In this document: piece by piece, positions 2,662-31,788 of the stretch | How the letters are laid out: each line of letters starts with the position of its first letter | Position numbering within the stretch: the first letter of the stretch is position 1 | Source of the DNA: Deltaproteobacteria bacterium | GTDB lineage: Bacteria > Myxococcota > Myxococcia > Myxococcales > 40CM-4-68-19 | Assembly (NCBI GenBank): GCA_025358085.1 | Contig: JANYKT010000169.1 | Span: 1 to 34,906 of the forward strand | DNA length: 34,906 nt | Reading direction: 5' to 3' | Notes under the pieces: generated by a model | The model's database searches: none | Told to the model about the DNA's origin: nothing | What the model saw: the letters and a program-made list of their open reading frames with translations, nothing else | Made by a program: the position numbers and the translations under genes

Positions 2662-5600
2662 CGACCGCGGCTTCGAGCCTTCCGGGTTCTTCGTTCTCCG
2701 CAGCCCGCTTTTGCCGTACGCCTCCTTCCTCGAGCTGGGCGACGCGCTGACCGCGGCAGCCTGCGCGGACGACGGGGCTGCGCTCGAGCAGGCCTTGGCG
2801 GCGGACCGTGCGCTGGTGCGAACCAGGCTGCGCGCGCTGATACGCCGCTCCGTCGTTCGCGATGCGCTCTTTTTGGCCTCGCCGAGCCTGGAAGCGAGAC
2901 TCGATGTCTGGGTGTCGAATCCCGATTCCGAAGCAGGACGAAAAGTCGAGCGCGCCCTGATGCGCTACGTCCAGCGCATGGCGGTGCGACCTACGCCCTT
3001 TGGCCTGTTCGCCGGCTGTTCGACGGGCCTCCTGGCGGAAGAGACTTCGTTGCGCACCGAAGGTGCCTCGGAGCTGCGACGCTATACGCGCCTCGACATG
3101 CATTATCTCTGTGCGCTGGCCGAAGACCTTGCCGCGCTGAGCGAACTGCGACCGTCTCTGCGCTGGTTTCCGAACTCAAGCCTCTGCGGCCTGCCACTTC
3201 GTCCGCGCTACATCGAAGGTACGATCAACGGATCCGACCGCAACCGCACCTACCACCTGATCGGTCTGGCCGCGACCGAGTACCTGCAACAGACCCTGGC
3301 CCGCGCCCGGGATGGCAGCACCATTGACGAGTTGGCCGCTGCGCTGACTTCCAGCGACGTCTCGCTCGCAGATGCGCTCGCGTACGTCGAGGGGCTGGTG
3401 GACAGCCAGGTGTTGGTGCCTTCGCTGGAGCCATTTGTCACCGGTCCCGAGCCGCTCTCGGCGTTGATCTCGGCGTTGTCCACACCTGCTGCGGCACCGA
3501 TCGCCTCTCGATTGGCAAAAGTGCGCGACGAGCTGCAAGCCATCGACCAGGCCGGACCCGGCGCCCTTCCCGCGACGTACCGGCGGGTGGCGGAAGGTCT
3601 CGCCGCTCTTCCCACCGCCGTCGAGCTGCCCCGCCTGTACCAGGTCGACCTGCTGCGTCCCGCGCCTTCGGCCACGCTGGGTCGCGACGTGATTGCGAAG
3701 CTCTCACGCGCTGTCGGCCTGCTCGCGCGACTCGCACCCTCCAGTCCGCGGGAAGGCGCGTTGCGGGCTTTTCGCGAGTCCTTTCGTCAGCGATACGAAG
3801 ATCGCGAAATGCCCCTGATGGAGGTGCTGGACGACGACGTGGGGATTGGCTTTGGGTCCCTCTCCGAGCTTGGCACCGAGATCTCGCCGCTGCTCGACGG
3901 CCTCGACTTCCCTATCGACGTGGCGGTACCAGCGCGGTGGGGAGGTCGCGAAGAGATCCTGCTCAGGAAGCTGCAGGCCGTCCACGCGGCACGCGCGAAA
4001 GTGCTGGAGCTCACCGAAGCCGATCTCGATGAGCTGGCCTCCGGCGAAGATGCGCGGTTGCCCGACGCTTTCGCGGCGGTGGTGACGCTGGGCACTGACC
4101 GGACCTTGCTCCTGCATGCAGTTGCAGGTCCGTCGGGCGCCCTGCTGTTCGGGCGATTCTGTCATGGCGACCCCTCGCTGCTGGCGCACGTGCGGGCGCA
4201 CCTCGCAGCCGAAGAGCGACTGCGGCCAGACGCGGTGTTCGCGGAGATCGCCCACCTTCCGCAAGGTCGATCGGGAAACATCCTCTGCCGTCCGTTGCTG
4301 AGGCAGTACGAGCTTCCTTACTCGGGCCGTTCAGGGGCGGCGAAAGATCACCAGCTGAGGGCAGCGGATCTGCTCGTGTCCGTTCGCGGTGAGAGGGTTC
4401 TTCTTCGCTCGCGCAGCCTGGATAAGGAGATTGTTCCGCGCTTGACCACGGCCCACAATTTCGTCGATGCCGACGTGACTCTTTACCGCTTCCTGTGTGC
4501 GCTGCAGACACAGGATGGGACCGGCCTGAACTGGGATTGGGGCAGTCTGTCGAAGGCGTCTTTTCTGCCAAGGGTGGTGGCTGGCGACGTGGTCCTTGCG
4601 CTCGCCGCCTGGCGGCTTTGGGAAAGCGATCTGAAACCACTCCTGCAAGCCGATGCAACCGCATGGTTCCGCTGGGCGCAGGACCTGCGAACTCGATTGC
4701 AGCTTCCCCGATTCATCCTTTTTGCCGATTTCGACAACCGATTGCCCGTCGATTTGGACAACGTGCTGAGCGTCGAGGCGTTCTGCCAGCTCATCAAGGA
4801 GCGGAAGGAAGCTCTGCTGCTCGAAACGTATCCCGGAGCCGTAGTCGAGGCGCCGGAAGGCCTGCTCACGCACGAGCTGATCGTGCCTTTCGTCTGCACC
4901 CGAACCTCGGCGCCGGCTGCCAGGGTACGTTCCTCGGCTGGGGAGGTGAAGCGCTCCTTCGCCCCCGGCTCCGAATGGCTCTACTTGAAGATCTACACGG
5001 GCGTCTCCGCGGCTGATGACGTCTTGCGGTTGGTGGCGCCGGTGCTGGCTGCCGCCGTCCAATCGAGGCTTGTGGAGCGCTGGTTTTTTCTCCGCTATTC
5101 CGACCCCGATTACCATCTGCGCCTGCGTGCCGCGGGACCTCCTGAGCGACTGCTGCAGGCTCTGCTTCCGGCATTGACCACTGCGCTCGAGCCTTTAAAG
5201 ACCGACGGCCGGATTTGGCGCATGGCGCTGGACACGTACCAGCCGGAAGTGGAGCGGTATGGGGGCGATCGTGGGCTTGTCCTGGCAGAACGATTGTTTC
5301 ATGCCGACAGCGAAGCAGCGCTGGAGATCGTCTGCTCTTTGTCAGGTGAAGGAGCCGTGGATAGCCGTTGGCAGCTCTGCGTGCTGGGTGTCGAAGGGCT
5401 CCTGGATGCTTTTGCCCTGGACGATGACGCCAGGCGGCACCTGCTCCACGCCTTGCGGACGCAATTCGCCGCCGAGTTCCGCTCCACTGTGGCTTTCGAG
5501 CGGCAATTGGATAAGAAGTATCGCGCGGACCGACTAGCGCTCGAAACCCTGCTGGCGGGCGGATCGCCGGGACTGGTGGAGAATTGCCGCGAAATCATTC

Positions 5601-5839
5601 GCCGCCGCAACCATCGTCTGGGTGTCATTGCTGGCGAGCTTCGGCACGCGGAAGCCAGCGGCGACCTCGCCGTCCCCGTGAACGATCTGATCCAAAGCTA
5701 CATCCATATGTGGACGAATCGCATGTTCCGCTCTGCCGGCCGTGCGCAGGAGTTGGTGATTTACGATTTTCTGAGCCGGGTTTACGAATCGCGGCTCGCC
5801 CGACGACGGCAGCAGCGACCGCACGGCAAGAAGGAGTGA
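2654..5839 (+). CDS. lanB: Class I lanthipeptide dehydratase LanB (full length)
   Basis: A 1061-residue tRNA-Glu-dependent dehydratase that glutamylates Ser/Thr of the precursor and eliminates glutamate to give dehydroamino acids. The N-terminal glutamylation domain starts with the typical FFVLRSPLLPYASFLEL and continues to about residue 650 (AVRPTPFGLFAG near 115). The C-terminal elimination domain (SpaB_C type) runs from about residue 770, with SEWLYLKIYTG, then RYSDPDYHLRLR and DTYQPEVERYGG. Both domains sit in one chain, as in NisB and MibB, unlike the split enzymes of thiopeptide and goadsporin loci. GTG 2654 is chosen because it overlaps the lanC stop by 8 bases and gives the correct N-terminus; an open frame continues further upstream but there it only shadows lanC. 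Confidence 0.93.
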   Translation: MADDRGFEPSGFFVLRSPLLPYASFLELGDALTAAACADDGAALEQALAADRALVRTRLRALIRRSVVRDALFLASPSLEARLDVWVSNPDSEAGRKVERALMRYVQRMAVRPTPFGLFAGCSTGLLAEETSLRTEGASELRRYTRLDMHYLCALAEDLAALSELRPSLRWFPNSSLCGLPLRPRYIEGTINGSDRNRTYHLIGLAATEYLQQTLARARDGSTIDELAAALTSSDVSLADALAYVEGLVDSQVLVPSLEPFVTGPEPLSALISALSTPAAAPIASRLAKVRDELQAIDQAGPGALPATYRRVAEGLAALPTAVELPRLYQVDLLRPAPSATLGRDVIAKLSRAVGLLARLAPSSPREGALRAFRESFRQRYEDREMPLMEVLDDDVGIGFGSLSELGTEISPLLDGLDFPIDVAVPARWGGREEILLRKLQAVHAARAKVLELTEADLDELASGEDARLPDAFAAVVTLGTDRTLLLHAVAGPSGALLFGRFCHGDPSLLAHVRAHLAAEERLRPDAVFAEIAHLPQGRSGNILCRPLLRQYELPYSGRSGAAKDHQLRAADLLVSVRGERVLLRSRSLDKEIVPRLTTAHNFVDADVTLYRFLCALQTQDGTGLNWDWGSLSKASFLPRVVAGDVVLALAAWRLWESDLKPLLQADATAWFRWAQDLRTRLQLPRFILFADFDNRLPVDLDNVLSVEAFCQLIKERKEALLLETYPGAVVEAPEGLLTHELIVPFVCTRTSAPAARVRSSAGEVKRSFAPGSEWLYLKIYTGVSAADDVLRLVAPVLAAAVQSRLVERWFFLRYSDPDYHLRLRAAGPPERLLQALLPALTTALEPLKTDGRIWRMALDTYQPEVERYGGDRGLVLAERLFHADSEAALEIVCSLSGEGAVDSRWQLCVLGVEGLLDAFALDDDARRHLLHALRTQFAAEFRSTVAFERQLDKKYRADRLALETLLAGGSPGLVENCREIIRRRNHRLGVIAGELRHAEASGDLAVPVNDLIQSYIHMWTNRMFRSAGRAQELVIYDFLSRVYESRLARRRQQRPHGKKE

Positions 5840-5951
5840 TAAGCGTCGCTGCCGAGCAGACGCCCGGCGCGGTGTTGCCCGCGAAAAGAGGACGCGCTAC
5901 GTTCGCTGGGCGTCCGGAATCAATCCGGCGAGATCCCAAATGGGAGCCATC

Positions 5952-6086
5952 ATGAACGATGCCATGCCGATCGAAAGAGCCAAGCCGCTCATCATCGGGA
6001 AAGAAACGATCAAACGCCTGAAGGCGAAGTCGGCGATGAAGTCGTACAGGACGCAGACCAGCATCTGTTCGTACTGCACGCCCTGA
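5952..6086 (+). CDS. lanA: Lanthipeptide precursor peptide LanA
   Basis: A 44-residue peptide 112 bp after lanB. The leader contains PLIIGKETIKRL (residues 12-23), matching the L-x-L-x-KETI-xx-L pattern seen in many class I precursors, especially from Bacteroidota and myxobacteria. The C-terminus reads TQTSICSYCTP (34-44). It offers dehydratable T34, T36, S37, S40 and T43 and two thiols, C39 and C42, so at most two rings. Both cysteines lie in the last six residues, as expected for a core. ATG 5952 has GGAG five bases upstream (5943-5946); ATG 5940 is in frame but lacks a ribosome site. There is no Gly-Gly cleavage motif, so the leader/core border is uncertain (perhaps after R33). The minus-strand frame over this stretch is a shadow. 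Confidence 0.85.
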   Translation: MNDAMPIERAKPLIIGKETIKRLKAKSAMKSYRTQTSICSYCTP

Positions 6087-6128
6087 GACGGTGAATCCGC
6101 GCCGCGCGCCATTGTTTGCATGCGGCGG

Positions 6129-6182
6129 CCTCCTTCCCGGGCCCGATTTCCGGCCACTGGAATTCGGAGCCTGGGAAGGAGG
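6129..6182 (+). promoter_or_regulatory. Long stem-loop between lanA and ycaO
   Basis: The outer stem pairs 6129-6138 with 6173-6182 (10 perfect base pairs). It continues as 6139-6142 with 6169-6172 (one GU), a single bulged A at 6168, then 6143-6151 with 6159-6167 (one T-T mismatch) around a seven-base loop. That is about 23 pairs in 54 bases. No T-run follows, so it is not a standard terminator. By analogy with other RiPP operons, a hairpin after the precursor gene may stabilise lanA mRNA or partly stop transcription, giving more precursor than enzyme. That role is inferred. It lies inside the open frame upstream of the chosen ycaO start, which argues against a longer YcaO. Confidence 0.7.
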
Positions 6183-6221
6183 GCATCACGAGCCCTTCGC
6201 GCTTTTAGTCGCGGAGGTGGT

Positions 6222-7475
6222 TTGAAGATTTTCGGCGTCGACCAGCGACAGCCAAAGCATTTTCTCGCGGGGACCCACCGGGCGCGAAGCCCGCGTGAGA
6301 CGGTGGCCGACTACCGCCGTTTCATGCAGCAGATGGGAATTACCAGGCTTGCCAACGTCACCGGTCTGGACGTCCTTGGATTGCCGGTGTTCATGGCCAT
6401 CCGGCCCAACTCGCGTGTTCTCTCCGTGTCGCAAGGGAAGGGTTTGGATCGCGATGCCGCAGCGGCCTCGGCGCTGATGGAGTCCATCGAATATTGGCAC
6501 GCCGAGCGGATGGACCTCCTGCCGCTGCGCTTCGATTCTTTTCAATCCCTCTCGCGGCAAGCCAAGGCCGTCGTGATTCTGGAGGAGTTGCCCAGGTGCG
6601 TTGGCGCCGTGGTTTCGCACGATCGTCCTCTCCTCTGGGTCGAGGGGCACGATTTAATCAGCGGGGTGCGAACCTGGATCCCCGAAGAGGCGGTGGGACT
6701 GAACATGGTGCTCCCAGCCAGTCAAGAACCAATCTTTCTTCGCGGCGGCAATGGCCTTGCTTCGGGCAATCATCCACTCGAGGCCATTGTCCACGCGCTG
6801 CTCGAGGCGATCGAGCGCGACGCGGTCACGCTCTGGTATCTGGATGAAGACTCCGAGCGGACCAAAGCGACTCAGGTGGACCCTTTCACCATCGACGATC
6901 CATCGTGCCGTTCGGTCCTGGACCGGCTCGATGCGGCGCAGGTTCACGCAGCAGTCTGGGATGTGACGAGCGATTTGCGGATTCCAACTTATGTCTGCAC
7001 CATCTTTGACGATCCGGGGATGCACGCGTGCGGCGCCTTTTCCGGATACGGCAGCCATCTTGCCCCCGAAATCGCGCTGCTCCGGGCGCTGACCGAGGCG
7101 GTGCAAAGCCGCCTCACACAGATCAGCGGCAGCCGCGACGACATGCTCCCCGCGAGCTACCACCGGGGTCGCACCGACGAGCTGCTCCACTCCCTCCGCG
7201 AAGAAGTCGCCGAACCCGCCCCGCAATTGCGCTTCCGCGACCGGCACTCGCTCTCGACCGATACCTTCGAAGGCGATCTGGCGGTCCTGCTCGACGCCCT
7301 GGGGCGCGTCTCGTTGAAGCAGGCAATCGCGGTCGACCTGAGCCGGCCGGAAATCGGCATTTCCGTGGTCAAGGTAGTGGTCCCGGGGCTCGCCGCGTAT
7401 CACGGCCATCCCCATGCTCCGGCCTCACGCGAGCGGGCCCGCGAAAAGCACCTGGCGCAACTGGATGCATCATGA
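6222..7475 (+). CDS. ycaO: YcaO-family peptide backbone-modifying enzyme
   Basis: A 417-residue YcaO protein. YcaO enzymes use ATP to activate backbone amides, giving azolines or, with TfuA, thioamides. The three expected motifs are present: ASALMESIEYWHAER (Glu87, Glu90), HALLEAIERDAVTLW (Glu195, Glu198) and LRALTEAVQSRLTQISGSRDD, which supply nucleotide and Mg ligands in the family. The N-terminal GTHRARSPRETVADYR and VSQGKGLDRDAAAA are also typical. The C-terminus is not a PxPxP tail like that of azoline cyclodehydratases, and no separate E1-like or ocin-ThiF partner is present. TTG 6222 is chosen for GGAGG at 6213-6217 (4-base gap); an ATG at 6120 is in frame but falls before the hairpin and lacks a ribosome site. 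The stop overlaps tfuA as ATGA. Confidence 0.92.
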   Translation: MKIFGVDQRQPKHFLAGTHRARSPRETVADYRRFMQQMGITRLANVTGLDVLGLPVFMAIRPNSRVLSVSQGKGLDRDAAAASALMESIEYWHAERMDLLPLRFDSFQSLSRQAKAVVILEELPRCVGAVVSHDRPLLWVEGHDLISGVRTWIPEEAVGLNMVLPASQEPIFLRGGNGLASGNHPLEAIVHALLEAIERDAVTLWYLDEDSERTKATQVDPFTIDDPSCRSVLDRLDAAQVHAAVWDVTSDLRIPTYVCTIFDDPGMHACGAFSGYGSHLAPEIALLRALTEAVQSRLTQISGSRDDMLPASYHRGRTDELLHSLREEVAEPAPQLRFRDRHSLSTDTFEGDLAVLLDALGRVSLKQAIAVDLSRPEIGISVVKVVVPGLAAYHGHPHAPASRERAREKHLAQLDAS

Positions 7476-8215
7476 GCGTCTATGTCTTTCTCGGTCCCAC
7501 CATGCCGGTCGATCATGCGCGCGCAATTCTCGACGCCGCATACCTCCCGCCGGCAGCCGCTGGTGACATCTGCAAGCTCGTGTTGGGGCCTTCTCCCGTA
7601 AAGGCCATTGCGCTGATCGACGGGCTGTTCCAGCAAATGCCTGCGGTCTGGCACAAGGAGATCCTCTTTGCGCTCTCTCACCGGATCCCTGTGTATGGGA
7701 GCTCGAGCATGGGAGCATTGCGCGCCGCGGAACTCGCTCCCTTCGGCATGGTTGGTGTTGGCCACATCTTCGAGGCATTCCGCGATGGCGTCTACGAGGA
7801 CGATGATGAGGTCGCCGTCATCCATGGTCTCGGCGAGCACCAGTACATTCCCCTGTCGGATCCAATGGTCAATCTACGACACGGCCTCGACCTCGCGGTT
7901 GCGTCCGGCTCTATTTCAGAGACGACAAAGACGAGGCTCACCGGCTTGGCCAAGTCCTGGTTCTATCCTGATCGGTCGTGGAAGAAGCTGTTGCGCGAGG
8001 CGCCGCTGGCTGGTGTGCCCGAAGCGGAGATCGCGCGCCTTCGTGAGCTGGTGGAGCGCGTCCGTCCGGACATGAAGAGAGCCGACGCGGAGCTCCTCCT
8101 GCACCGGGTAAAGGACGATGACTTGCGCGGGTTCGCCTTCACGCCCCCCACCTTTGATTTCGAGCCGACCAAATATTGGCAGTCGCTCGTCGCTGCAATG
8201 ACGCCGGCGATTTAA
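7472..8215 (+). CDS. tfuA: TfuA-like protein, YcaO partner
   Basis: A 247-residue TfuA-domain protein. Family signatures are clear: VFLGPTMPVDHAR at the N-terminus, YLPPAAAGDICKL, then IDGLFQQMPAVWHKEIL, GSSSMGALRAAELAPFGM, and an acidic VYEDDDEVAVIHG. TfuA proteins accompany YcaO enzymes that install thioamides, in methanogen McrA thioglycine and in thioviridamide-type peptides, and are thought to recruit YcaO or help deliver sulfide. ATG 7472 overlaps the ycaO stop by four bases, so the two are made together. This pairing is the main reason to predict thioamidation rather than azoline formation on the LanA core. It is the last recognisable gene of the operon. Confidence 0.93.
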   Translation: MSVYVFLGPTMPVDHARAILDAAYLPPAAAGDICKLVLGPSPVKAIALIDGLFQQMPAVWHKEILFALSHRIPVYGSSSMGALRAAELAPFGMVGVGHIFEAFRDGVYEDDDEVAVIHGLGEHQYIPLSDPMVNLRHGLDLAVASGSISETTKTRLTGLAKSWFYPDRSWKKLLREAPLAGVPEAEIARLRELVERVRPDMKRADAELLLHRVKDDDLRGFAFTPPTFDFEPTKYWQSLVAAMTPAI

Positions 8216-8519
8216 CTCGAATGCCACCAGCCGTGCGGCGGCGTTCCGACGCTTCAGGAATAGGCCATCGCTTCTTTCCCGGGGAGACTGCTACAGCATT
8301 CTGCTACGCTCCAGTGGTGGAGTCGACCCGAGACAACGTGACAGAAGAAGCGTTGTCGGACCCAAAGGCTATCAGACCCAGACAGGCCAAGAACGGTAGA
8401 GCCGCGAAAGACGATCGTACGGGTCATCTCGAGCGACGTCGTTCGTTGTTACCATTCCTCGACCGGGGCGTAAGATACGGGAGACGTCGGGCGCCTTGTT
8501 TCGACGGGAAGGTCTGAAG
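8216..8519. other. Intergenic region after the RiPP operon
   Basis: 304 bases with no convincing gene. One plus frame from ATG 8221 stays open to 8517 (98 codons), but the product is Arg-rich, without a ribosome site or recognisable motif, and is probably chance. No hairpin with a T-run follows tfuA. The segment probably carries the promoter of the TPR lipoprotein gene. Confidence 0.5.
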
Positions 8520-10253
8520 ATGAAGTCGATGAGCTCGTTCGCCCGCCTCGCAAGCCTCGCCACGCTCATCGGGTGCGCTGCGGCGCCACCTCCGCCCCCG
8601 CACGGAAACACCCTCAACGTCGCGTCTTCGAAAGCCACGAACGCGCCGGCGTTGCCGCAGCTGGGTGACCTGCAAAAGGTCGGACATATCGAGCTGCCGA
8701 TCTCCTGCGCGGCGAAGGTGGGGCCGGAGTTCCAGCGTGGGGTGGCGCTCCTTCACTCCTTCTTCTACGAGGAGGCGCGTCGCGTGTTTACGGGAGTCGC
8801 TCTCACGGATCCGTCGTGCGCGATGGCCCAATGGGGGATCGCCATGACCTACTGGCATCCCATCTGGGCCGCTCCGGACGCGGAGGACCTCCAGCACGGT
8901 CTCGCGGCGTCTGACACAGCGAGCGCGATGACCACGTCACTCCCGCTCGAGCACGAGCTCGTTGCGGCCATCTCCGTCTTCTATCACTCGCAGGCCGCGG
9001 GCGATCCAGGCGCGCCCTCGCAGACGTGCCATGGCGTGATGGCGGGCGACATTCGCGGCCGCGCGCTCGCCTACGAGAAGGCGATGAGCGAAGTCCACGC
9101 GCGTCATCCCGAGGACGCCGAAGCGACCACGTTCTACGCGCTCGCGCTCCTCGCCACCGCGCCGCCGACGGACAAGACCTACGCGAACCAATTGAAAGCC
9201 ACGGCGCTCCTCGAGCCACTTTTCGTTACGCAGCCGAATCACCCGGGTGTCGCTCACTATCTGGTCCACGGTTACGACTACCCGGAGCTCGCCACGCGCG
9301 GTCTTCCCGCGGCAAGAGCGTACGCGGAGCTCGCCCCGTGGGTGCCGCACGCGCTCCACATGCCTTCGCACATCTTCACGCGGCTCGGGCTGTGGGATGA
9401 GTCCACGGCGGGCAACCTCGCATCGGCCGACGCCTCGCATCGCTACCAGCTCGCGCGCGGGCGGACCGCAACGGAGACCGAGGAGCTGCACGCGCTCGAC
9501 TATCTCGCCTATGCGTACTTGCAAACTGCACAGGACAAAAAAGCGCTTTCTGTCGTCGAGCGGATACGTGCCGTCACGGAGACCTACCCGGCGCGGGAGA
9601 TCGCCGGCTCGTATGCTCTCGGCGCCATCCCGGCTCGGTATGCCCTCGAGCGACATCAATGGGCAGAGGCGGCTGCGCTTCCCGACCCGTCGCCCGTCAT
9701 CGCGCAGTTCGCCTTCGCCGCGGCCAACATCGAGATGGCGCGCGCCATTGGTGCGGCGCGGTCGGGCGATCCGGTGCGAGCGGCGAGATCGGTCGAGAGG
9801 CTCCGTGTCCTTGGCGAGGGTCTGAAGGATCCACGATTTTCGTTCTTCGCGCGCCAGGTGCAAATGCAGACGATGGCTGCGGCCGCGTGGGTAGCCGAGA
9901 GTCGAGGTGAAGCGCCCACGGCGCTCGAGCAAATGCGAAAAGCGGCGGACCTCGAAGATCGTCTCGGCAAGAGCCCCGTCACGCCGGGCGCGATCATCCC
10001 GGCGCGCGAGCTCCTGGGAGAGATGCTCGTCGAGCAGCACCATCCTGCGGAGGCGCGCGTGGAGTTCGAAGCCGCGCTCCGCGATTTTCCGTCGCGCTTC
10101 ACTCTCCTCTACGGCGCAGGGCACGCCGCGGCGCTCGCAGGCGATACGGCAGGAGCCCGTACCCATTTCGCGGCGCTGCTTGCCCTCGCCGCGCGGGAAG
10201 ACGGTACCCGGCCGGAGGTCGCCGAGGCGCGCAAGGTCGTTGAGGGGCGTTAG
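8520..10253 (+). CDS. TPR-repeat lipoprotein
   Basis: A 577-residue exported protein. The N-terminus has a Lys start, a hydrophobic stretch and the lipobox LIGC, giving a lipidated Cys after SPase II cleavage, followed by a Pro-rich linker. The rest is Ala-rich paired helices, with tetratricopeptide-like units such as GVALLHSFFYEEARRVF, GIAMTYWHPIW and AYAELAPWVPHALHMPSHIFTRLG. I recognise this as the kind of TPR protein often annotated only as hypothetical; the partner is unknown. ATG 8520 is chosen because GGGAAGG lies seven bases upstream (8506-8512) and it places the signal peptide correctly; a TTG at 8496 is less likely. It converges on the ECF sigma gene. Confidence 0.85.
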   Translation: MKSMSSFARLASLATLIGCAAAPPPPPHGNTLNVASSKATNAPALPQLGDLQKVGHIELPISCAAKVGPEFQRGVALLHSFFYEEARRVFTGVALTDPSCAMAQWGIAMTYWHPIWAAPDAEDLQHGLAASDTASAMTTSLPLEHELVAAISVFYHSQAAGDPGAPSQTCHGVMAGDIRGRALAYEKAMSEVHARHPEDAEATTFYALALLATAPPTDKTYANQLKATALLEPLFVTQPNHPGVAHYLVHGYDYPELATRGLPAARAYAELAPWVPHALHMPSHIFTRLGLWDESTAGNLASADASHRYQLARGRTATETEELHALDYLAYAYLQTAQDKKALSVVERIRAVTETYPAREIAGSYALGAIPARYALERHQWAEAAALPDPSPVIAQFAFAAANIEMARAIGAARSGDPVRAARSVERLRVLGEGLKDPRFSFFARQVQMQTMAAAAWVAESRGEAPTALEQMRKAADLEDRLGKSPVTPGAIIPARELLGEMLVEQHHPAEARVEFEAALRDFPSRFTLLYGAGHAAALAGDTAGARTHFAALLALAAREDGTRPEVAEARKVVEGR

Positions 10254-23901: not shown

Positions 23902-24066
23902 GGTCGCTTGTACGCCGTTTCTGCGCGGACATTTCAACTGCCACGGACTTCACTCCGTTGACGAGCAGGGCCTCAGTCTGGGCCCGCTTGCTTTTCATTG
24001 GAAGATTGCGCTACGCGTCTTCGCGTTGTTTCCCGCCGTTATGCCCGCGACTCTGGAGGTTTACCT

Positions 24067-24927
24067 GTGAAGAAGATCAGCCTTTCGCTTCTCTCGCTCT
24101 TATTCGCCGCCTGCGGCGGCACCGCCAACTCGCAAGGTCCTGCTGCGGAAGAGTCCGCTCCACCGATGCTGGGCCTCCATATGGCCAAGGGCGAAGGCCC
24201 CGAGTTGTCGCGGAAGCCAGGCGGCGGCGGCGGCTCTAACATGATCTTTCACAACGGCGAGATCATGCCCACCACCTCCGTGCATGCCATCTTCTGGGGT
24301 TCGAGCTGGGCGGGGAATACCAGCGACAAGGTCTCTGGAATGGACTCCTACTATCAGGGGTTCGGCAACTCAACCTATGCCGCGGCCTCGAATGAATATA
24401 CCGGCACCAACGGCCAGGTATCTTCGGCCGTGGCTTATACCGGGCACACGACAGACGGCACCACTGCACGCGGCGGCCGCAATTCGAGCACCATCCTCTC
24501 CGAAGTGTGCAAGGTGATCGGCACCAGCGCGGTACACAACGGCTATTACCCCGTTTACGTGGACCTTCCTCGAGGTAGCGCGGGGTATTGCGGATACCAC
24601 AGCGCAGGCACCTGCAATGGCGTGACCGTGCAGTTCGCCTTCTTCTGGAATCTCGATGGCGATTCCGGCTGCGACCCGGTCGATACTTCAGGCCTGCACT
24701 CGCAAGGCCTTGCCGCCATCGCCAACACCAGCTCGCACGAGCTGTCCGAGGCCCGCACCGATCCGAACAACGGCGGCTGGTACGACAGCTCGGGACAGGA
24801 GAATGGCGACAAGTGCAACTTCCAGTTCCCACAGCCGCTGGTGACGTTCGCAAACGGCACGCAGTGGAAGGCGCAGTCCGAGTGGTCGAACGCGGCCAAC
24901 GCCGGCGCCGGCGGCTGCATCGAATAG
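24067..24927 (+). CDS. EXORDIUM-like secreted lipoprotein
   Basis: A 286-residue lipoprotein. GTG 24067 has GGAGG seven bases upstream (24055-24059) and begins a signal peptide ending in lipobox FAAC. A Gly-rich linker leads to a domain resembling the plant phosphate-induced/EXORDIUM family: NGEIMPTTSVHAIFWGSSW, then NGYYPVYVDLP, CGYHS and VTVQFAFFWNLDG. The C-terminal part reads SSHELSEARTDPNNGGWYDSSGQENGDKC, a conserved His-Glu motif that in related proteins might bind metal, though it lacks a second His in HExxH spacing. Cysteines suggest disulfides. Its role is unknown; cell-surface or secreted. Confidence 0.8.
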   Translation: MKKISLSLLSLLFAACGGTANSQGPAAEESAPPMLGLHMAKGEGPELSRKPGGGGGSNMIFHNGEIMPTTSVHAIFWGSSWAGNTSDKVSGMDSYYQGFGNSTYAAASNEYTGTNGQVSSAVAYTGHTTDGTTARGGRNSSTILSEVCKVIGTSAVHNGYYPVYVDLPRGSAGYCGYHSAGTCNGVTVQFAFFWNLDGDSGCDPVDTSGLHSQGLAAIANTSSHELSEARTDPNNGGWYDSSGQENGDKCNFQFPQPLVTFANGTQWKAQSEWSNAANAGAGGCIE

Positions 24928-25086: not shown

Positions 25087-26832
25087 TCACGCGAGTCTGG
25101 CGAATCGTCGGCGCGAGTCGGGGAAGTCCACCCCAAGAGCCAACCAGGTAACCACGGCGCGGCCTACGCCCGAGAGCACGAGATAGATCCCGCAGAGGAA
25201 GTGCGCTTGGACATGCAGCGACCAGAGCCGCACGACGACCAGCGCGACGAGGCCGTTCCAGAGGACCGAATAGAGCGGCGTCGGGTGCAGCGGGCGATTC
25301 CCGAGGCCAGCCTTGCAAACGCGGGAGAGCGGCAAGCGGTAGCGGATGCCGACGACCTCGGGAGCGGGCGCGCCATGGCAACATCCTTGAACTAGACAGC
25401 GCACGCGCCCGAGCGATTGCACGAACGGCGCTGCGCAGCAGTAGCCGGCAAGCAACTCCCAGATCTGCTCGGGCAGCGTGCCGAAGAGTCGCGAGGCGCA
25501 GGCGCCCACGATGATCCCGAGGAGCCCGCCGTAAAAGCCGTAGGGCCGCATCTCGGGCGCGGGCCGCTCAAGAAGCTGCGCCCAGAGGAGCGAGCCGACG
25601 AGTCCCGAAGCGGCGGTGCCGAAAACCAGCGCCACATTCCCGGGTCCGACCATCGCCGCGACGATGGAGAGCGCGACTAGATTCCCGAGTGCCGCCCAGA
25701 ACCCATAGCCGAGCACGCGCACCGGGCCGATGCGCCATTCGAGCCAGAAGTTGGCCGCTCGCTCCGTCAGCGCGCGCAGCGCTTCCCAGAAGCGGGTTCT
25801 GCTCACGACGAGAGCGAACGCTGCTGCGCCCGCGAGCACGTCGAGGAGAGAGTGCATTCCGGTCGCGAGGCAGCTCGCGGCGATGAGCCACGCCCAGGAG
25901 CGCAGCGGCACGCGCAGGCGGGGCCACCGCGCGCTCCACGCCTCGGCTGCCAGGAGCGCCCAGAGTACGTGGAAGGAAGGGAACGCGCCCGCGGGCGTGT
26001 CGAGTGCGCGCTCCTGCGAGAGGAGCCAGCCCAGCGGTCCATGCGGCTCGAAGGGTTTCGGCGGTGCGATCAACGGGAGAGCGAAGTACAGCGGAAAGAC
26101 GAGCGCATTCGCCAGGAGGCCGCGCGCGATCAACTCGCGCGCCTGGGCGCGCGTGCGCGGAGCCAGGATTGCGAACAGCACAAAGGCATAGGTGCTCGCG
26201 TAGACGAACTCGGCCGCCTCAAGGACCGGAAGGCGCGTCTCGAAAGGCAGGAACGTCGAGATGGCATCGCGCGGCGGGCCTGCAAGCATCGCCAGCTCAT
26301 AGAGCGCAGCCCAGGGCACCGCCACGAGCAGTGTCGCGGCGATTAGCTCGCGCGCGCCTGCCGGCGAGGGCGAAGGCTCGGGCAGGGAAAAGACTGGCCG
26401 GGGCAGCGCGGGCCCGAAGCGCCGCCGCAGATCGTGCTCTTCGTAGCCCAGCACCAGCGCGGCGCAAGAGAGCGCCGTGATCGGAGTGACCAGCCAGAGG
26501 CCGCTTGCCGAACCCCAGGCCACAGCCCAGCCGCAGCAGGCAAGACAGAAGCCGACATAAATGGGATGCGCGAGCAACGCGTAGACGCTCGTCGAGACGT
26601 GTTTTGGCGGCGGAAAGGCGTTCATCGGGAGCCCGCCGCCGCGCTTCCAGAGCGCCACCCACCCGGACACCATGAGGGCGGCTCCCGCGACGATGAGCGC
26701 CGCGCCTGCCACCGCCGAATGCAGGGCCGGGAGCCGGACGGCACTCTCAGTCGCGCGGGCCCAGAGGACGAGCAGCGTAGGCAGCGCCAGGGCGAAAAGC
26801 GCGCCATAGGCGACTCGCGTCAAGGCGGCCAT
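25087..26832 (-). CDS. Fusion membrane protein: ICMT-like, PAP2, Lgt-like
   Basis: A 581-residue polytopic protein with three recognisable parts. Residues about 1-150 resemble isoprenylcysteine/phospholipid methyltransferases (LLAHPIYVGFCLACCGWAVAWGS, then EEHDLRRRFG). Residues about 165-355 form a PAP2-type phosphatase (GAFPSFHVLWALLAAEAW and GMHSLLDVLAG, with the family His and Asp). Residues about 395-575 resemble prolipoprotein diacylglyceryl transferase (GGLLGIIVGACASR, RVRCLVQGCCHGAPAPEVVGIRYRLP, HPTPLYSVLWN). The Lgt part lacks the usual RGExR end. ATG 26832 overlaps the upstream gene by 13 bases. It probably acts on membrane lipids; exact reactions are not readable. Confidence 0.85.
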   Translation of the reverse strand: MAALTRVAYGALFALALPTLLVLWARATESAVRLPALHSAVAGAALIVAGAALMVSGWVALWKRGGGLPMNAFPPPKHVSTSVYALLAHPIYVGFCLACCGWAVAWGSASGLWLVTPITALSCAALVLGYEEHDLRRRFGPALPRPVFSLPEPSPSPAGARELIAATLLVAVPWAALYELAMLAGPPRDAISTFLPFETRLPVLEAAEFVYASTYAFVLFAILAPRTRAQARELIARGLLANALVFPLYFALPLIAPPKPFEPHGPLGWLLSQERALDTPAGAFPSFHVLWALLAAEAWSARWPRLRVPLRSWAWLIAASCLATGMHSLLDVLAGAAAFALVVSRTRFWEALRALTERAANFWLEWRIGPVRVLGYGFWAALGNLVALSIVAAMVGPGNVALVFGTAASGLVGSLLWAQLLERPAPEMRPYGFYGGLLGIIVGACASRLFGTLPEQIWELLAGYCCAAPFVQSLGRVRCLVQGCCHGAPAPEVVGIRYRLPLSRVCKAGLGNRPLHPTPLYSVLWNGLVALVVVRLWSLHVQAHFLCGIYLVLSGVGRAVVTWLALGVDFPDSRRRFARLA

Positions 26833-27563
26833 CGCACGACCTCGTGGATCGCCCAGCCGTTCTCCACGGGCGCGCTTGCAAGCGTGAGCGCGCCGCGCGA
26901 GCGCCACTTAGTCTCCTCCAAGCCGACGATGCGTCCGGGAAAGACTTTCTCCAGGTCGGGGATGATCGAAAGCGCCGTCTCGCCGATGCGCCCGGAGCGG
27001 AGCACGCGGGACTCCGAGAGCCGCAACACCCCGTCGATCGATAGCTCGGCGGGCGCCCCGTCGATGAGCACCAGATTCACCGGATGCGGCCCCAGCCATT
27101 CGATCCACACCGCCCCGTGCTCAGCGCCCGCGAACCGCCCCCAGCGCAACTCGCGGATGGGCAGGCGCCACGGAGGGATGGTCAGCGTGAGGATTTCGAC
27201 GTAGCCCAACCCGAGCAGGATGCGGCCATCGGGGAGAAGCAGCTCCACCTGCGAGCGCGGCTGCACACATTCCCAGCGGACGCCCTCGGAGAGCTCAGCG
27301 GAGAAGGCGGACGCGCGCGCGTCCCAAGTTCCGGAGATCCCCAGCGCCGGCGTCACCCACGAGAGCCGTTGCCCTGCGAGTTCCGGCTCGGGGCAGGCGC
27401 GCAGCGTCGAGCGCACGCGCGTCCCTTGGGCGTCGTCGAGCTGAAGCAGGCTCGCGTACCTGAGCGCGAGCGCGCCCCAGCGCAACTCGGCGCAATAAGC
27501 CACCGCCACCTCGCCGTCCTCGGCTATGCAGTCCAGGTACCATTTGCGCAGCGAGAAGCTCAT
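26820..27563 (-). CDS. Hypothetical protein coupled to the fusion gene
   Basis: A 247-residue protein beginning MSFSLRKWYLDCIAEDGEVAVAYCAELRWG. The WYxD opening and tryptophan-rich beta pattern (GVRWECVQP, IPPWRLPIRELRWGRF, AVWIEWLGPHPVNLVL) recall the lipocalin-like CrtC/AttH hydratases, but similarity is weak and I do not assign function. No signal peptide. The shorter ATG at 27563 is preferred over an earlier in-frame codon at 27602. The gene ends inside the start of the membrane fusion, so the two products are likely made together and may act on the same lipid. Confidence 0.7.
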   Translation of the reverse strand: MSFSLRKWYLDCIAEDGEVAVAYCAELRWGALALRYASLLQLDDAQGTRVRSTLRACPEPELAGQRLSWVTPALGISGTWDARASAFSAELSEGVRWECVQPRSQVELLLPDGRILLGLGYVEILTLTIPPWRLPIRELRWGRFAGAEHGAVWIEWLGPHPVNLVLIDGAPAELSIDGVLRLSESRVLRSGRIGETALSIIPDLEKVFPGRIVGLEETKWRSRGALTLASAPVENGWAIHEVVRWPP

Positions 27564-27696: not shown

Positions 27697-27705
27697 CTCG
27701 GTGAG

Positions 27706-27779
<74 letters not shown>

Positions 27780-27898
27780 GTCTTCTTGAGACCGTCCCGC
27801 CGTTGGGGAGTTGAGCGGGCCGAGCCTCGTACCATCGGCCCGGAGCAACTTCAAGCAGGAACTCGTCTCGATTGCCGTGCTGGTTCAAGCCAGCGCAG

Positions 27899-28189
27899 CT
27901 ACTCGGCGGATTTCAAACCGTTGAGTGCGTTCTTCAGTACTTGCGACGGCCGGAAAGTCAGCACCCGGCGCGCGGAGATTTCGATCTCCTGGCCTGTCTG
28001 CGGGTTGCGGCCGAGCCGCGATTTCTTCTCGCGCACGACGAAGTTGCCGAAGCCCGAGAGCTTGATCTTTTCGCCCTTCTCGAGCGTGTCTTTCAAAGTG
28101 TCGAAGACCATCTCGACAACTTCGGCGGATTCCTTCTTGGAGAATCCAACCTCTTTGCACACGCTTTCGATGACGTCAGCCTTGGTCAT
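27899..28189 (-). CDS. ihfA: Integration host factor alpha subunit
   Basis: A 96-residue HU/IHF-family DNA-bending protein. It begins MTKADVIESVCKEVGFSKKE and includes the family signature GEKIKLSGFGNFVVREKKSRLGRNPQTG, with the Pro that intercalates into DNA, and RRVLTFRPSQVLKNALN near the end. Position directly after pheT is the conserved place of ihfA in proteobacteria, which favours IHF alpha over HU. It forms a heterodimer with IhfB (not in the window) and bends DNA at promoters and in recombination. It is probably co-transcribed with pheST. Confidence 0.93.
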   Translation of the reverse strand: MTKADVIESVCKEVGFSKKESAEVVEMVFDTLKDTLEKGEKIKLSGFGNFVVREKKSRLGRNPQTGQEIEISARRVLTFRPSQVLKNALNGLKSAE

Positions 28190-28286: not shown

Positions 28287-30707
28287 TCAGGTCCGGATCG
28301 CGGCTCCCAGAACCTCGCGCAGTTGCTCCTTGATGGTGGTCACGATGCCGTCAGCCTCAGCGTCGGTCAGCGTGCGATCCGCAGCCCGGAGCGATAGCCG
28401 GTACGCAATGCTCTTCTTGCCCTCTGGCACCGGAGCGCCTTTGTAGACGTCGAAGAGCGCGACGTGCTCGAGCAGGCCGAACGTTTCCGCCGCGCGAATG
28501 GCCGCGAGCATCCGCGCCGCCAGCACAGACTCGTCGACCACGAAGGCGAGATCGCGCTCGATGCCGGGAAACCTGGGCACGCCATGCAGCTTGCGTTCGG
28601 GGCGCGCCTTGCCCAGCAGCAATTCCCAGTCGAGCTCCGCCACGAAGGTGTGGGCGGGCAGGTCGAAAGCCTTGGCGACCTGCGGGTGCAGTTGCCCGAA
28701 GAAGCCCGCCACCGTGCCGTCGACCGTGAGCGACGCGCAGCTGGCAGGGTGCAGCGTGGCGATGGGCGCCAGGGAATATTCGATCTGGGGCACGGCGAGC
28801 GCCGCCAGCACGTCTTCAATGGCGCCCTTGCAATCATAGAAGTCGAGGGCAGCCGGCGCGGACGTCCAGCGCTTCGCGGCTTGTCCGGTCAGAGCGAGCG
28901 ACAGCCGGCGCGGCTCGTGGTCAGGCCACGAAAGCAGTCCACGGGGATGCCGCGGGTCGGGGTGCGCGAGATAGACGCGGCCGAGTTCGTAGAGCATCAA
29001 TTCGCGCGCGCCGCGGGCCAGGTTGTGGCCCAGGTTCCGCAGCAGGCCCGCCAGGAGCGACCAGCGCATTGCGCCCTGCTCCACCGTCAGCGGATTGGCG
29101 ACGCGCATGGCGCGAGGCGCGCCTTCGTCGGGCCAGAGAGCGTCGAGATCCCGCTCGGCGACGAAGCTGTAGTTGAGCACCTCGTCGAAGCCGCGCGCCG
29201 AGAGGGCCGCGCGGGCCGCAGAAGTGGCCACGCGGTCGGGAGGCACGGCTGCAGTCTCGCCGACGCCTGCCTTGGGAACCTCGACAGGAATGGTATCGAG
29301 CCCGCGCTGGCGAGCGATCTCTTCCACGCAGTCGATCTCGCGCGTCAGGTCCCGCCGCCACGACGGCGCCTTCCACAAGCGGCGCTCGGGCATGCCGTCC
29401 ATCGGCTCCAGCCCCAGCGAGCGTAGGCGCTTGTCGACTTCAACCGCGTCGACGGTCGCGCCCAGAATGGCGGAGACCCGCGCGGGGCGCACCCAGATGT
29501 GAGCCGCCGGTCGCGGCGACGGGTAAAGATCGATCACGCCCGGCAGCACCGTCCCTCCCGCGAGCTGGACGATGAGTTCAGCGCAGCGATCCGCCGCCTG
29601 GGCCGCCATGCCCTCGTCGGCGCCGCGCTCGTAGCGGTGCGAAGCCTCGGTGTGCAGCGCCTGTCGCCGCGCGGTCCGGCGGATGCCCGCGCCTTCGAAC
29701 ACCGCTGACTCGAGCAACAGCCGCGTCGTGCCGGAAGACACCTCGCTGGTCTGGCCGCCCATCACGCCCGCCAGCGCCACTGGCTTCTCGCCGTCGGCGA
29801 TGACCAGGTCGTCGGCCGTCAACTTGCGCTCCTTGCCGTCGAGCGTGGTCAGCGGTTCGCCCTCGTGGGCGCGACGCACGATGATGCGCGCGCCGGCGAG
29901 CTGGTCGAGATCGAAGGCGTGCAGCGGATGCCCTAACTCGAGCAGCACGAGGTTGGTGGCATCGACAACATTGCTGATCGGCCGGATGCCGCAGGAGCGC
30001 AGGCGCTCCTGCAGCCAGAGCGGCGACGGCGCTATCTGCACGCCTTCGATCACGCGTGCCAGGTACCGCGGGCAGCGCTGCGCGTCCTCGACATCGACGC
30101 GCGCGGCAGCGGCAATGACCAGTCCGTGCGGCAGGCGCTGTGCGGGAAGGTTGATGGGAACGCCGGTCAGCGCCGACAGCTCGCGCGCGATGCCCAGGTG
30201 CGAGAGCGCGTCCGGCCGATTGGGGGTTACGTTGATCTCCAGCACCGTATCGGGCAGGCCCAGGAGCGCGTCGAGCGGCGTGCCTGGCCTGGTCTCGCGC
30301 GGCAACATCAAGAGCCCGCTGTGGTCGTCGCCCAGACCCAACTCGCGCGCCGAGCAGAGCATGCCTTCGCTCTCGACGCCGCGCAGTCGCGCGCGCTTGA
30401 TCTCCTTGCCGCCCGGCAGCACCGCGCCCGGCCGCGCCATCGGCACGAGATCTCCCGCGGCATAGTTGACCGCGCCGCACACCACCTGGTGCACACCCGC
30501 GCCGTCGTCTACCTGGCAGAGATTCAAATGGTCGCTGCCTTCGATAGGCGTCTTGACCGTGACCCGCGCCGCGACCACGCCGGCCGGGAGCGCGCGCTTT
30601 TCCGTGCCCTCCACCTCCAGGCCCGCGAGCGTCAGCCGTCGAGCAACTTCCTCGTCGGACAGGTCCACCGGACACAGCTCGCGCAGCCAATTGAGCGAGA
30701 GCTTCAT
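28287..30707 (-). CDS. pheT: Phenylalanyl-tRNA synthetase beta subunit
   Basis: An 806-residue PheT, the beta chain of the heterotetrameric enzyme that charges tRNA-Phe. The start MKLSLNWLRELCPVDLSDEEV is standard, followed by a tRNA-binding OB domain (about 40-150), the B3/B4 editing domain (about 210-385), the B5 domain, a catalytic-like core and a C-terminal ferredoxin-like anticodon-binding domain (RFPGIERDLAFVVDESV to the end). ATG 30707 has GAGGG about eight bases upstream. It starts ten bases after the pheS stop, so the two subunits are made from one message. Confidence 0.97.
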   Translation of the reverse strand: MKLSLNWLRELCPVDLSDEEVARRLTLAGLEVEGTEKRALPAGVVAARVTVKTPIEGSDHLNLCQVDDGAGVHQVVCGAVNYAAGDLVPMARPGAVLPGGKEIKRARLRGVESEGMLCSARELGLGDDHSGLLMLPRETRPGTPLDALLGLPDTVLEINVTPNRPDALSHLGIARELSALTGVPINLPAQRLPHGLVIAAAARVDVEDAQRCPRYLARVIEGVQIAPSPLWLQERLRSCGIRPISNVVDATNLVLLELGHPLHAFDLDQLAGARIIVRRAHEGEPLTTLDGKERKLTADDLVIADGEKPVALAGVMGGQTSEVSSGTTRLLLESAVFEGAGIRRTARRQALHTEASHRYERGADEGMAAQAADRCAELIVQLAGGTVLPGVIDLYPSPRPAAHIWVRPARVSAILGATVDAVEVDKRLRSLGLEPMDGMPERRLWKAPSWRRDLTREIDCVEEIARQRGLDTIPVEVPKAGVGETAAVPPDRVATSAARAALSARGFDEVLNYSFVAERDLDALWPDEGAPRAMRVANPLTVEQGAMRWSLLAGLLRNLGHNLARGARELMLYELGRVYLAHPDPRHPRGLLSWPDHEPRRLSLALTGQAAKRWTSAPAALDFYDCKGAIEDVLAALAVPQIEYSLAPIATLHPASCASLTVDGTVAGFFGQLHPQVAKAFDLPAHTFVAELDWELLLGKARPERKLHGVPRFPGIERDLAFVVDESVLAARMLAAIRAAETFGLLEHVALFDVYKGAPVPEGKKSIAYRLSLRAADRTLTDAEADGIVTTIKEQLREVLGAAIRT

Positions 30708-30717
30708 CGCCGGACCC

Positions 30718-31788
30718 TCATAGTTGCTCCAGGAAGCGCACGTCGTTCTCGAAGAGCGAGCGCAGATCGTCGATGCCGTAGCGGAGCATGGCGAGGCGGT
30801 CGATACCGACGCCGAACGCATAGCCGGTGACCTTTTCGGGGTCGTAGCCTACGCCCGCGAGCACGTCGGGATTGACCATCCCCGAGCCCAGCACCTCGAG
30901 CCAGCCGGTTTGCTTGCAGAGCCTGCAGCCCTTGCCTCCGCAGGCGGCGCAGCTCACGTCCACCTCGGCGGACGGCTCGGTAAAGGGAAAGTACGAAGGC
31001 CGCAGGCGCGTCTTCACGCTGCTGCCGAAAAATGCCTTGGCGAAGGCATCCAGCGTTCCCCGCAGGTGCGCCATGCTCAGTCCCTGCTCGACGTGGAGGC
31101 ACTCGACCTGGTGGAACATCGGCGTGTGCGTGATGTCCGAGTCGCAGCGATAGACCTTGCCGGGCGCAATGATCCGCACCGGCGGCGGCTGCGCGAGCAT
31201 GGTCCGCGCCTGCACCGGGCTGGTGTGCGTGCGCAGCAGGAGCTGTTTTTGCGCCCCCTCGGTGGGAGGCGATCCTGGCGGCGGCTCGGGCTGCGTGGCC
31301 AGGTCCAGATAGAAGGTGTCCTGCATGTCACGGGCGGGGTGATCGCTTGGGATCCCAAGCTTTTCGAAGTTGTAGAGATCCCACTCGATCTCGGGACCGT
31401 CGGCGACGTGGAAGCCGAGGCGAGCGAAGATCTCGACGATGTCGTCCAGCGCCTGCGAGACCGGGTGCCGATGGCCGCGCTTCTGCGAGCGGCCCGGCAG
31501 CGTCACGTCGAGCTTCTCGCGCGCGAGGTCCCTCTGCAGCGCCTGCTCGCCGATCTTGTGCTGCTGGTCCTTGAGCAACGACTCGAACCGGCTGAGGGCC
31601 TCGGAGACGAGCTTTCCCATCGCCGGGCGCTCGGCGGGCGCGAGCTTGCCCATCCCCTTGCGGAGCGCCGAGAGCGAGCCGCTCTTCCCCAGGTATTTGA
31701 CTCGCGCCGCTTCGACCTGTGCTTCGCTCGAGGCAGAGGCGAGCTCTGCCTTCCCTTCTTCGAGCAGCCGATTGATCTCGTCGATCAC
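30718..31788 (-). CDS. pheS: Phenylalanyl-tRNA synthetase alpha subunit
   Basis: A 356-residue PheS, the catalytic chain. It has an N-terminal coiled-coil (INRLLEEGKAELASASSEAQ and on) that grips tRNA, then class II motifs: SDITHTPMFHQVECLHVEQG as motif 2 and GYAFGVGIDRLAMLRYGIDDLR as motif 3, with the family's DPEKVTGYAFGVGI context. The CAACGGKGCRLC stretch is Cys-rich as in other PheS proteins. GTG 31788 is chosen since AGGAG lies six bases upstream (31795-31799) and the product length is typical. A terminator-like hairpin precedes it. Confidence 0.96.
   Translation of the reverse strand: MIDEINRLLEEGKAELASASSEAQVEAARVKYLGKSGSLSALRKGMGKLAPAERPAMGKLVSEALSRFESLLKDQQHKIGEQALQRDLAREKLDVTLPGRSQKRGHRHPVSQALDDIVEIFARLGFHVADGPEIEWDLYNFEKLGIPSDHPARDMQDTFYLDLATQPEPPPGSPPTEGAQKQLLLRTHTSPVQARTMLAQPPPVRIIAPGKVYRCDSDITHTPMFHQVECLHVEQGLSMAHLRGTLDAFAKAFFGSSVKTRLRPSYFPFTEPSAEVDVSCAACGGKGCRLCKQTGWLEVLGSGMVNPDVLAGVGYDPEKVTGYAFGVGIDRLAMLRYGIDDLRSLFENDVRFLEQL

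Follow-up and report, generated by a model that had tools for sequence, protein, structure and literature searches.

Conserved pairing of a PEMT-PAP2-Lgt-like fusion gene with a double-lipocalin partner gene: a probable lipid-modification unit

The gene pair and its products

The stretch of DNA analysed here (the window) comprises 34,906 nucleotides (nt) of contig JANYKT010000169.1 from a Deltaproteobacteria bacterium of the phylum Myxococcota (assembly GCA_025358085.1). The interval 25087-27563 correctly takes in two overlapping genes: one for a partner protein and, downstream of it, one for a protein in which a methyltransferase, a PAP2 and an Lgt-like domain are joined in one chain (Table 1; coordinates follow the window numbering). 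The preliminary description had proposed such a three-domain fusion, and it is real: in a single open frame the Pfam models PEMT (PF04191, E 1.5e-7, 32.2 bits versus a cut-off of 25), PAP2_3 (PF14378, E 1.8e-14, 54.5 bits versus 27) and LGT (PF01790, E 5.1e-14, 52.6 bits versus 24.9) all score above their cut-offs. The lipocalin-like fold suspected for the product of the overlapping upstream gene was confirmed as well (Z 16-21). The pair is conserved side by side across phyla, and the two genes probably form one lipid-modification unit, as had been suggested. Judging by the alignment of relatives and by the distance to the partner gene, the ATG listed in Table 1 is the favoured start of the fusion, and the 13-nt overlap suggests translational coupling of the two genes.

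The N-terminal domain had been called ICMT-like. This holds at the level of the superfamily, but the window protein passes the PEMT model and not the ICMT model of Pfam; ICMT scores do occur among its relatives. From its sequence the domain would be better assigned to the PEMT/ICMT superfamily (PF04191, PF04140). It shares the motifs HPIYxG and E..RF with these membrane methyltransferases, and both are near-invariant across 44 aligned fusion chains. Unlike them, the fusion family has a signature of its own, GLPMNAFPPP, and the module is joined here to PAP2 and Lgt-like domains, while in cousins from three genomes it is fused to a PlsC-type acyltransferase. One of these cousins (L111; loci, genomes and contigs are denoted by L, G and C with a number) adjoins genes for a pyridoxal-phosphate-dependent decarboxylase, a radical S-adenosylmethionine (SAM) protein and, by eye, a small open reading frame (ORF) resembling acyl carrier proteins.

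For fold comparison the fusion of Minicystis rosea (L017) was modelled as a full-length relative (pLDDT 91.1). For its N-terminus the sole related fold among the matches listed was a steroid 5-alpha-reductase (7c83), and this match was weak (Z 8.5); a solved ICMT chain was not among the matches listed, which is no evidence against that fold. The middle region matched inositol phosphorylceramide (IPC) synthase (9vj4, Z 12.5), SMSr (8ijq, 12.4), Aur1 (9ivc, 12.1) and LpxE (11.7). The best matches are thus sphingolipid synthases of the PAP2 superfamily, in agreement with the PAP2_3 score, but LpxE lies within 1 Z unit of the best of them, and the fold does not separate phosphatase from phosphotransferase. 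The window protein keeps PSFH and HSLLD, corresponding to PSxH and HxxxD, which we take to be the catalytic motifs of the superfamily. Most fusion members have both, with PSxH present in 31 of the 40 relatives scored; these 40-row counts omit L047, L054, L057, L059 and L060, whose frames are cut, broken or aberrant. L020 and L025 have no PSxH string and keep HxxxD. Unlike in the synthases, not all relatives keep an intact domain: L046, L049, L051, L055 and L056, which form one clade in the tree, keep its space without the motifs, and L053 and L058 have no PAP2 domain at all.

The partner had no match in Pfam or NCBIfam, and no Pfam family appeared even at E 10. Its structural model (pLDDT 96.6), with which a Foldseek search was also run, matched over its full length only the AttH/CrtC-type double-lipocalin group (Z 16.0-21.1; next unrelated row, Z 7.9), among them the Diels-Alderases 7e5t and 6kaw, AttH (2ich), a 25-phosphosteroid lyase (9fzn) and kievitone hydratase (7a0q). 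Members of this group with known chemistry are hydratases, lyases and cyclases of terpenoids or polyketides. The partner differs from these proteins (PF07143 and kin) in its smaller size, 247 amino acids (aa), and in having no match to them at the level of sequence. Residues W97, Y121 and E123 are invariant in aligned relatives. By eye they stand at nearly the spacing of the catalytic Trp241, Tyr266 and Asp268 of CrtC (PMC4717167), and no equivalent of His239 was seen. Membership of the CrtC family at the level of sequence was rejected, as an hhalign comparison with the CrtC-family profile was not significant (probability 7.6%). Neither in the window nor in aligned relatives was a signal peptide visible by eye at the start of the partner, and it was therefore taken as cytosolic.

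Table 1. Features of the gene pair in the window and of related loci elsewhere
Feature	Position	Strand	Remarks
Fusion gene	25087..26832	minus	likely ATG start at 26832; 581 aa; PEMT/ICMT-type, PAP2_3 and Lgt-like domains
Fusion ORF, longest form	25087-26907	minus	GTG start; 606 aa
Partner gene	26820..27563	minus	247 aa; upstream of fusion; AttH/CrtC-type double-lipocalin fold
Partner stop/fusion start overlap	26820..26832	minus	13 nt
PEMT domain (PF04191)	26413..26712	minus	aa 66-165 of the 606-aa ORF
GLPMNAFPPP in PEMT domain	26605-26634	minus	
HPIYVG in PEMT domain	26551-26568	minus	
GYEEHDLRRRFG in PEMT domain	26413-26448	minus	
PAP2_3 domain (PF14378)	25810..26217	minus	aa 231-366 of the 606-aa ORF
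FPSFH in PAP2_3 domain	25969-25983	minus	
HSLLD in PAP2_3 domain	25840-25854	minus	
LGT domain (PF01790)	25150..25737	minus	aa 391-586 of the 606-aa ORF
RPYGFYGG in LGT domain	25525-25548	minus	
GRVRCLVQGCCHG in LGT domain	25372-25410	minus	
Junction of in-frame gap	25153..25158	minus	~59 model positions (561-619) absent
ABC-2 permease fused to PAP2_3, L110 (G118)	7607-9178		adjoins ABC ATPase
Phytoene-synthase-like gene, L055	3450-4307		no Pfam match; NCBIfam CrtB (E 0.059) the only library hint
Phytoene-synthase-like gene, L139	6462-7376		same family as in L055
PEMT-PlsC cousin, L111 (G065)	3844-9246		
PEMT-PlsC cousin, L113 (G182)	5008-6585		
PEMT-PlsC cousin, L112 (G070)	2502-4268		

Distribution of the pair and rearranged loci

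Among 60 related genomes, the full-length fusion was found in the genome of the window (G000) and in G002, G005, G019 and G041, with about 50-71% identity. It is thus present in close relatives (2 of 11 genomes of the same family), and it also occurs in several phyla. In a scan of named genomes, 45 loci were found to carry this chain or a close relative of it, and further genomes have it besides. These loci come from Myxococcota, Acidobacteriota, Planctomycetota, Verrucomicrobiota, Gemmatimonadota, Bacteroidota and others, and one is labelled as a beta-proteobacterium; the labels are as submitted, and most of the genomes are metagenome bins. The complete isolate genome of Minicystis rosea, a myxococcote, is among the carriers. 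The fusion is therefore a real and old architecture. In the tree of 43 fusions the grouping by phylum exceeds that of shuffled labels; three Bacteroidota and two Acidobacteriota labels stand together with full support. Horizontal transfer of the fusion is possible, and bins can be mislabelled. The 44 rows of the conservation count include the window and L002-L005 and omit L024, L047, L054, L057, L059 and L060; L045 was additionally left out of the tree. L024 and L005 are apparently one contig and not independent.

The partner gene accompanies the fusion in 43 of the 45 loci, and the two exceptions (L023, L056) stop at a contig edge. Its stop overlaps the start of the fusion by 1-31 nt in 32 of these 43 loci, most commonly by 4 nt; L045 and L058 are not counted here, as the partner frame or the choice of start runs into the fusion and gives large negative distances. 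Searches for the partner by itself show a rare but wide distribution. It was found in 11 of 195 genomes of the window's own phylum; the phyla of L055, L021 and L037 gave 11 of 395, 6 of 297 and 3 of 288, respectively, and some of the matches were weak. In the own phylum, each of the nine genomes with a long fusion match also had the partner. Starting instead from the partner in the phylum of L055, we found a PEMT-LGT chain downstream in all eight loci fetched, directly in seven and one gene further in the eighth. The eight come from the 11 positive genomes without G202, to which the locus L055 already described belongs, and without G308 and G347, whose matches are weak (E 7e-4 and 1e-4) and lie in longer frames. 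In G019 the partner occurs twice with equal score (C66:1133-2225 and 3113-5820), the first copy being followed by a broken fusion start; this is either a tandem duplication or an assembly repeat. In L059 (7414-9381) the partner is followed by a PEMT-only ORF of 168 aa, which is a split form or the product of a frameshift.

Some divergent loci are rearranged, and in five of them (G118, L055, L056, L060, G576) genes for an ATP-binding cassette (ABC) exporter lie close by. In G118 a PEMT-LGT chain and a diverged partner stand beside an ABC ATPase and an ABC permease-PAP2 fusion. The ABC genes precede the fusion in L055, L056 and L060; clustering with L055 is the basis for assigning both genes of L056 and the ATPase of L060, and the permease of L060 has only a weak Pfam match. 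The order in G576 is partner, cytochrome P450, PEMT-LGT chain, ABC ATPase, a membrane protein without clear Pfam match, and a decarboxylase. These rearrangements are the best lead to the function of the unit. From loci in which PAP2 is lost, degenerate or moved onto the ABC permease we conclude that the core consists of the partner, the methyltransferase and the Lgt-like domain, with PAP2 and the exporter linked to it but movable.

Other genes for lipid or isoprenoid metabolism adjoin the unit at one or two loci each: UbiA (L022), a fatty-acid desaturase (L110), a sulfotransferase (L056) and a phytoene-synthase-like gene (L055, L139). The DDxxD-like and second Asp-rich motifs of the latter resemble those of squalene/phytoene synthase; a sequence search of solved structures returned nothing for this protein. 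Of 28 genomes searched for it, 27 of them with a partner match, only 2 had it, and it was rejected as a part of the core. A conserved wider operon was rejected as well: when neighbours were clustered over the 45 loci, no family outside the unit that was distinguishable from antisense ORFs occurred in more than six. The largest such cluster, from six loci, is the ABC ATPase, and antisense ORFs blurred the clustering at high G+C content. In the window the surroundings of the unit are of an ordinary housekeeping kind, with tRNA-Pro, an HU/IHF-type protein and PheT upstream (minus strand, 27705-28189 and 28287-30821). On the plus strand a 309-aa ORF (23998-24927) had no match in the Pfam search; by eye we take it to resemble secreted proteins of the EXORDIUM/phosphate-induced type.

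The Lgt-like domain

Residues 363-598 of the Minicystis model superimpose on Escherichia coli Lgt (EcLgt; 5azb, PF01790), the phosphatidylglycerol:prolipoprotein diacylglyceryl transferase, with Z 16.5 and a root-mean-square deviation of 3.4 over 224 aligned residues. The NCBIfam equivalog models for Lgt place the window fusion far below their cut-offs (42.6 versus 334 and 27.3 versus 118.9 bits). The preliminary description had directed attention to the catalytic residues, and these are kept in part. Equivalents of R143, G154, R239, E243 and R246 are present in the fusion family, which thereby keeps the arginines that handle phospholipid. Y26 is replaced by His in most members, the window copy keeping Tyr; H103 is replaced by Tyr or Phe and N146 by Cys in all fusion rows compared, and E151 by Cys. 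In addition, arm-2 and head are shortened, and the domain is fused behind two others. Six residues are described as absolutely required in EcLgt, namely Y26, H103, R143, N146, G154 and R239 (PMC13251419). The same study reports H103Y/F, N146C and one Y26H in other Lgts, as well as Cys at N146 and at E151 in distant ones (PMC13251419).

All 44 aligned chains carry the motif G-R-x-R-C-x-x-x-G-C-C-H-G, which aligns with G142-R-L-G-N-F-I-N-G-E-L-W-G154 of EcLgt and ends at aa 512 in the window fusion. Its GCCHG had been taken as a sign of a changed acceptor. This had to be given up, because the best Lgt of the same genome (contig C88, 204 bits), a protein of 359 aa with Tyr at H103 and likely the housekeeping Lgt, carries GRLGCFSAGCCWG and reads GCCWG; such changes are thus also found in an ordinary Lgt of this organism. 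In this gene (C88:78691-79476, L062) GCCWG replaces the usual motif; the genome also encodes a second Lgt-like protein (C169:30731-31429, L063), which is shorter and weaker and has no CCxG motif. A changed acceptor of the Lgt-like domain is nevertheless plausible from the alignments, because arm-2 and head are short and most members have His for Tyr26. Arm-2 and head determine the protein substrate specificity of Lgt (PMC13251419).

In the window copy, about 59 model positions (about 561-619) are missing in frame, with the junction near 25155. By alignment to EcLgt, transmembrane helix 7 and the counterparts of E243 and R246, two residues of the head network, fall into the gap, while R143, G154 and R239 remain. 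The statement that C-terminal Lgt residues are missing is thus true of the window copy but not of the family: EE..RGE after the conserved arginine is present in four near relatives and in 39 of 40 further relatives scored, and the only one without it, L027, is cut by the contig end. Loss of these residues as a family trait was rejected, the gap being private to the window copy. The role of E243 in EcLgt is disputed; E243 and R246 mutants did not complement in the work of Mao et al. (PMC4728403), and E243A grew like the wild type in a 2026 study (PMC13251419).

Between the window and G005, the ratio of nonsynonymous to synonymous changes (pN/pS) was 0.36 for the whole fusion and 0.35 for the LGT domain. 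As this shows no relaxed constraint on the LGT part, the gap should be either a recent loss or an assembly error. We give even chances to an assembly error with a true gene of full length: the gap is in frame between conserved flanks, no copy of the missing segment turned up in the rest of the genome, and the assembly is in 217 contigs, but a recent real deletion would give the same picture. If the gap is real, the window copy is probably unable to carry out the Lgt step.

Proposed function and alternatives

Lgt and membrane-bound PAP2 enzymes have their active sites on the periplasmic side, and SAM is cytosolic. The SAM-dependent domain and the cytosolic partner would therefore work at the inner face, and a chain with domains for the inner and the outer face would suit a modification that proceeds in two steps across the membrane, separated by a flip. 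At the inner face, partner and methyltransferase domain would process a hydrophobic substrate, which an ABC exporter, encoded at some loci, may flip. At the outer face the Lgt-like domain would move diacylglycerol from phosphatidylglycerol onto this substrate, and the PAP2 domain, where intact, may remove or move a phosphate head group. For a two-gene lipid-modification unit that acts at both faces of the inner membrane and uses a non-standard Lgt acceptor, the balance of the evidence stands at about even. In its favour are the pairing of the two genes over several phyla, the folds of partner and fusion, the retained Lgt residues, the ABC and lipid-related genes at some loci, the PEMT-PlsC cousins and the constraint on the fusion (pN/pS 0.36).

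Ordinary prolipoproteins, for which the Lgt of the same genome is available, are less likely acceptors. A small lipid, perhaps an isoprenoid, is more likely, in view of the short arm and head, the fold of the partner and the lipid-related neighbours; its isoprenoid nature is weaker still. The Lgt-type reaction is known only from protein acceptors. That the unit makes a novel class of diacylglycerol-linked lipids, possibly with an isoprenoid core, by inner-face methylation and an outer-face Lgt-type reaction, aided by the partner and in some cases by an ABC exporter, is a tentative proposal and rather unlikely in this specific form.

Several observations weigh against the two-face unit with a non-standard acceptor. 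Three of the six residues required in EcLgt (Y26, H103 and N146) are replaced in most fusion members. Several relatives have a degenerate PAP2 domain or none, and it therefore cannot be central everywhere. Most loci have no adjacent ABC genes, and conservation of the neighbourhood ends with partner and fusion. Each isoprenoid hint comes from a single case, and the phytoene-synthase-like gene was found in only 2 of 28 genomes. Finally, the profile of the partner did not match that of the CrtC family significantly, and a sequence search of solved structures gave no chain matching fusion or partner.

The Lgt fold and the retained arginines would suit a specialised lipoprotein pathway, in which the Lgt-like domain lipidates a cysteine in certain proteins and an ICMT-type domain methylates a protein carboxyl, in a CAAX-like manner. 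The ICMT scores among relatives and an Rce1-like CAAX protease upstream at one locus (L136) point in this direction. However, Rce1 was found once, the surroundings of the unit contain no conserved acceptor protein (among ORFs of at least 80 aa), a strong Lgt and a further, weaker one are already encoded in the own genome, and the parts shortened in the family, arm-2 and head, are those that set specificity (PMC13251419). We consider this pathway unlikely, at roughly one chance in a handful.

Alternatively, the domains may be non-catalytic and bind lipids for the AttH-type partner and an ABC exporter, the unit serving lipid transport or as a scaffold. AttH-type proteins and ABC genes co-occur at some of the loci, a link to ABC transporters has also been published (PMC2954199), and the loss of the PAP2 His in several relatives together with the partial replacement of Lgt residues would agree with this. 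The scarcity of adjacent ABC genes argues against it, as do the PEMT and Lgt motifs, whose near-invariance in the 44 aligned chains suggests catalysis. A purely non-catalytic role is therefore doubtful, and we rate it below the lipoprotein pathway. That separate genes were joined through a sequencing or assembly error can be dismissed almost entirely: nothing was found in favour of it, and the chain is carried by 45 loci from many independent genomes, including the complete isolate genome of Minicystis rosea.

All parts of the proposed two-gene unit come from known superfamilies; their arrangement and pairing are new to the literature searched. Neither the fusion nor the pair was described in the open-access literature searched, as judged by titles and the openings of abstracts; PMC11061730 was among the papers used for this comparison. 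Lgt is known as a lipoprotein enzyme. The combination of an Lgt-like domain with a methyltransferase, a PAP2 domain of the sphingolipid-synthase type and a partner with the fold of terpenoid enzymes, thinly spread over phyla, suggests that diacylglyceryl transfer may serve other acceptors.

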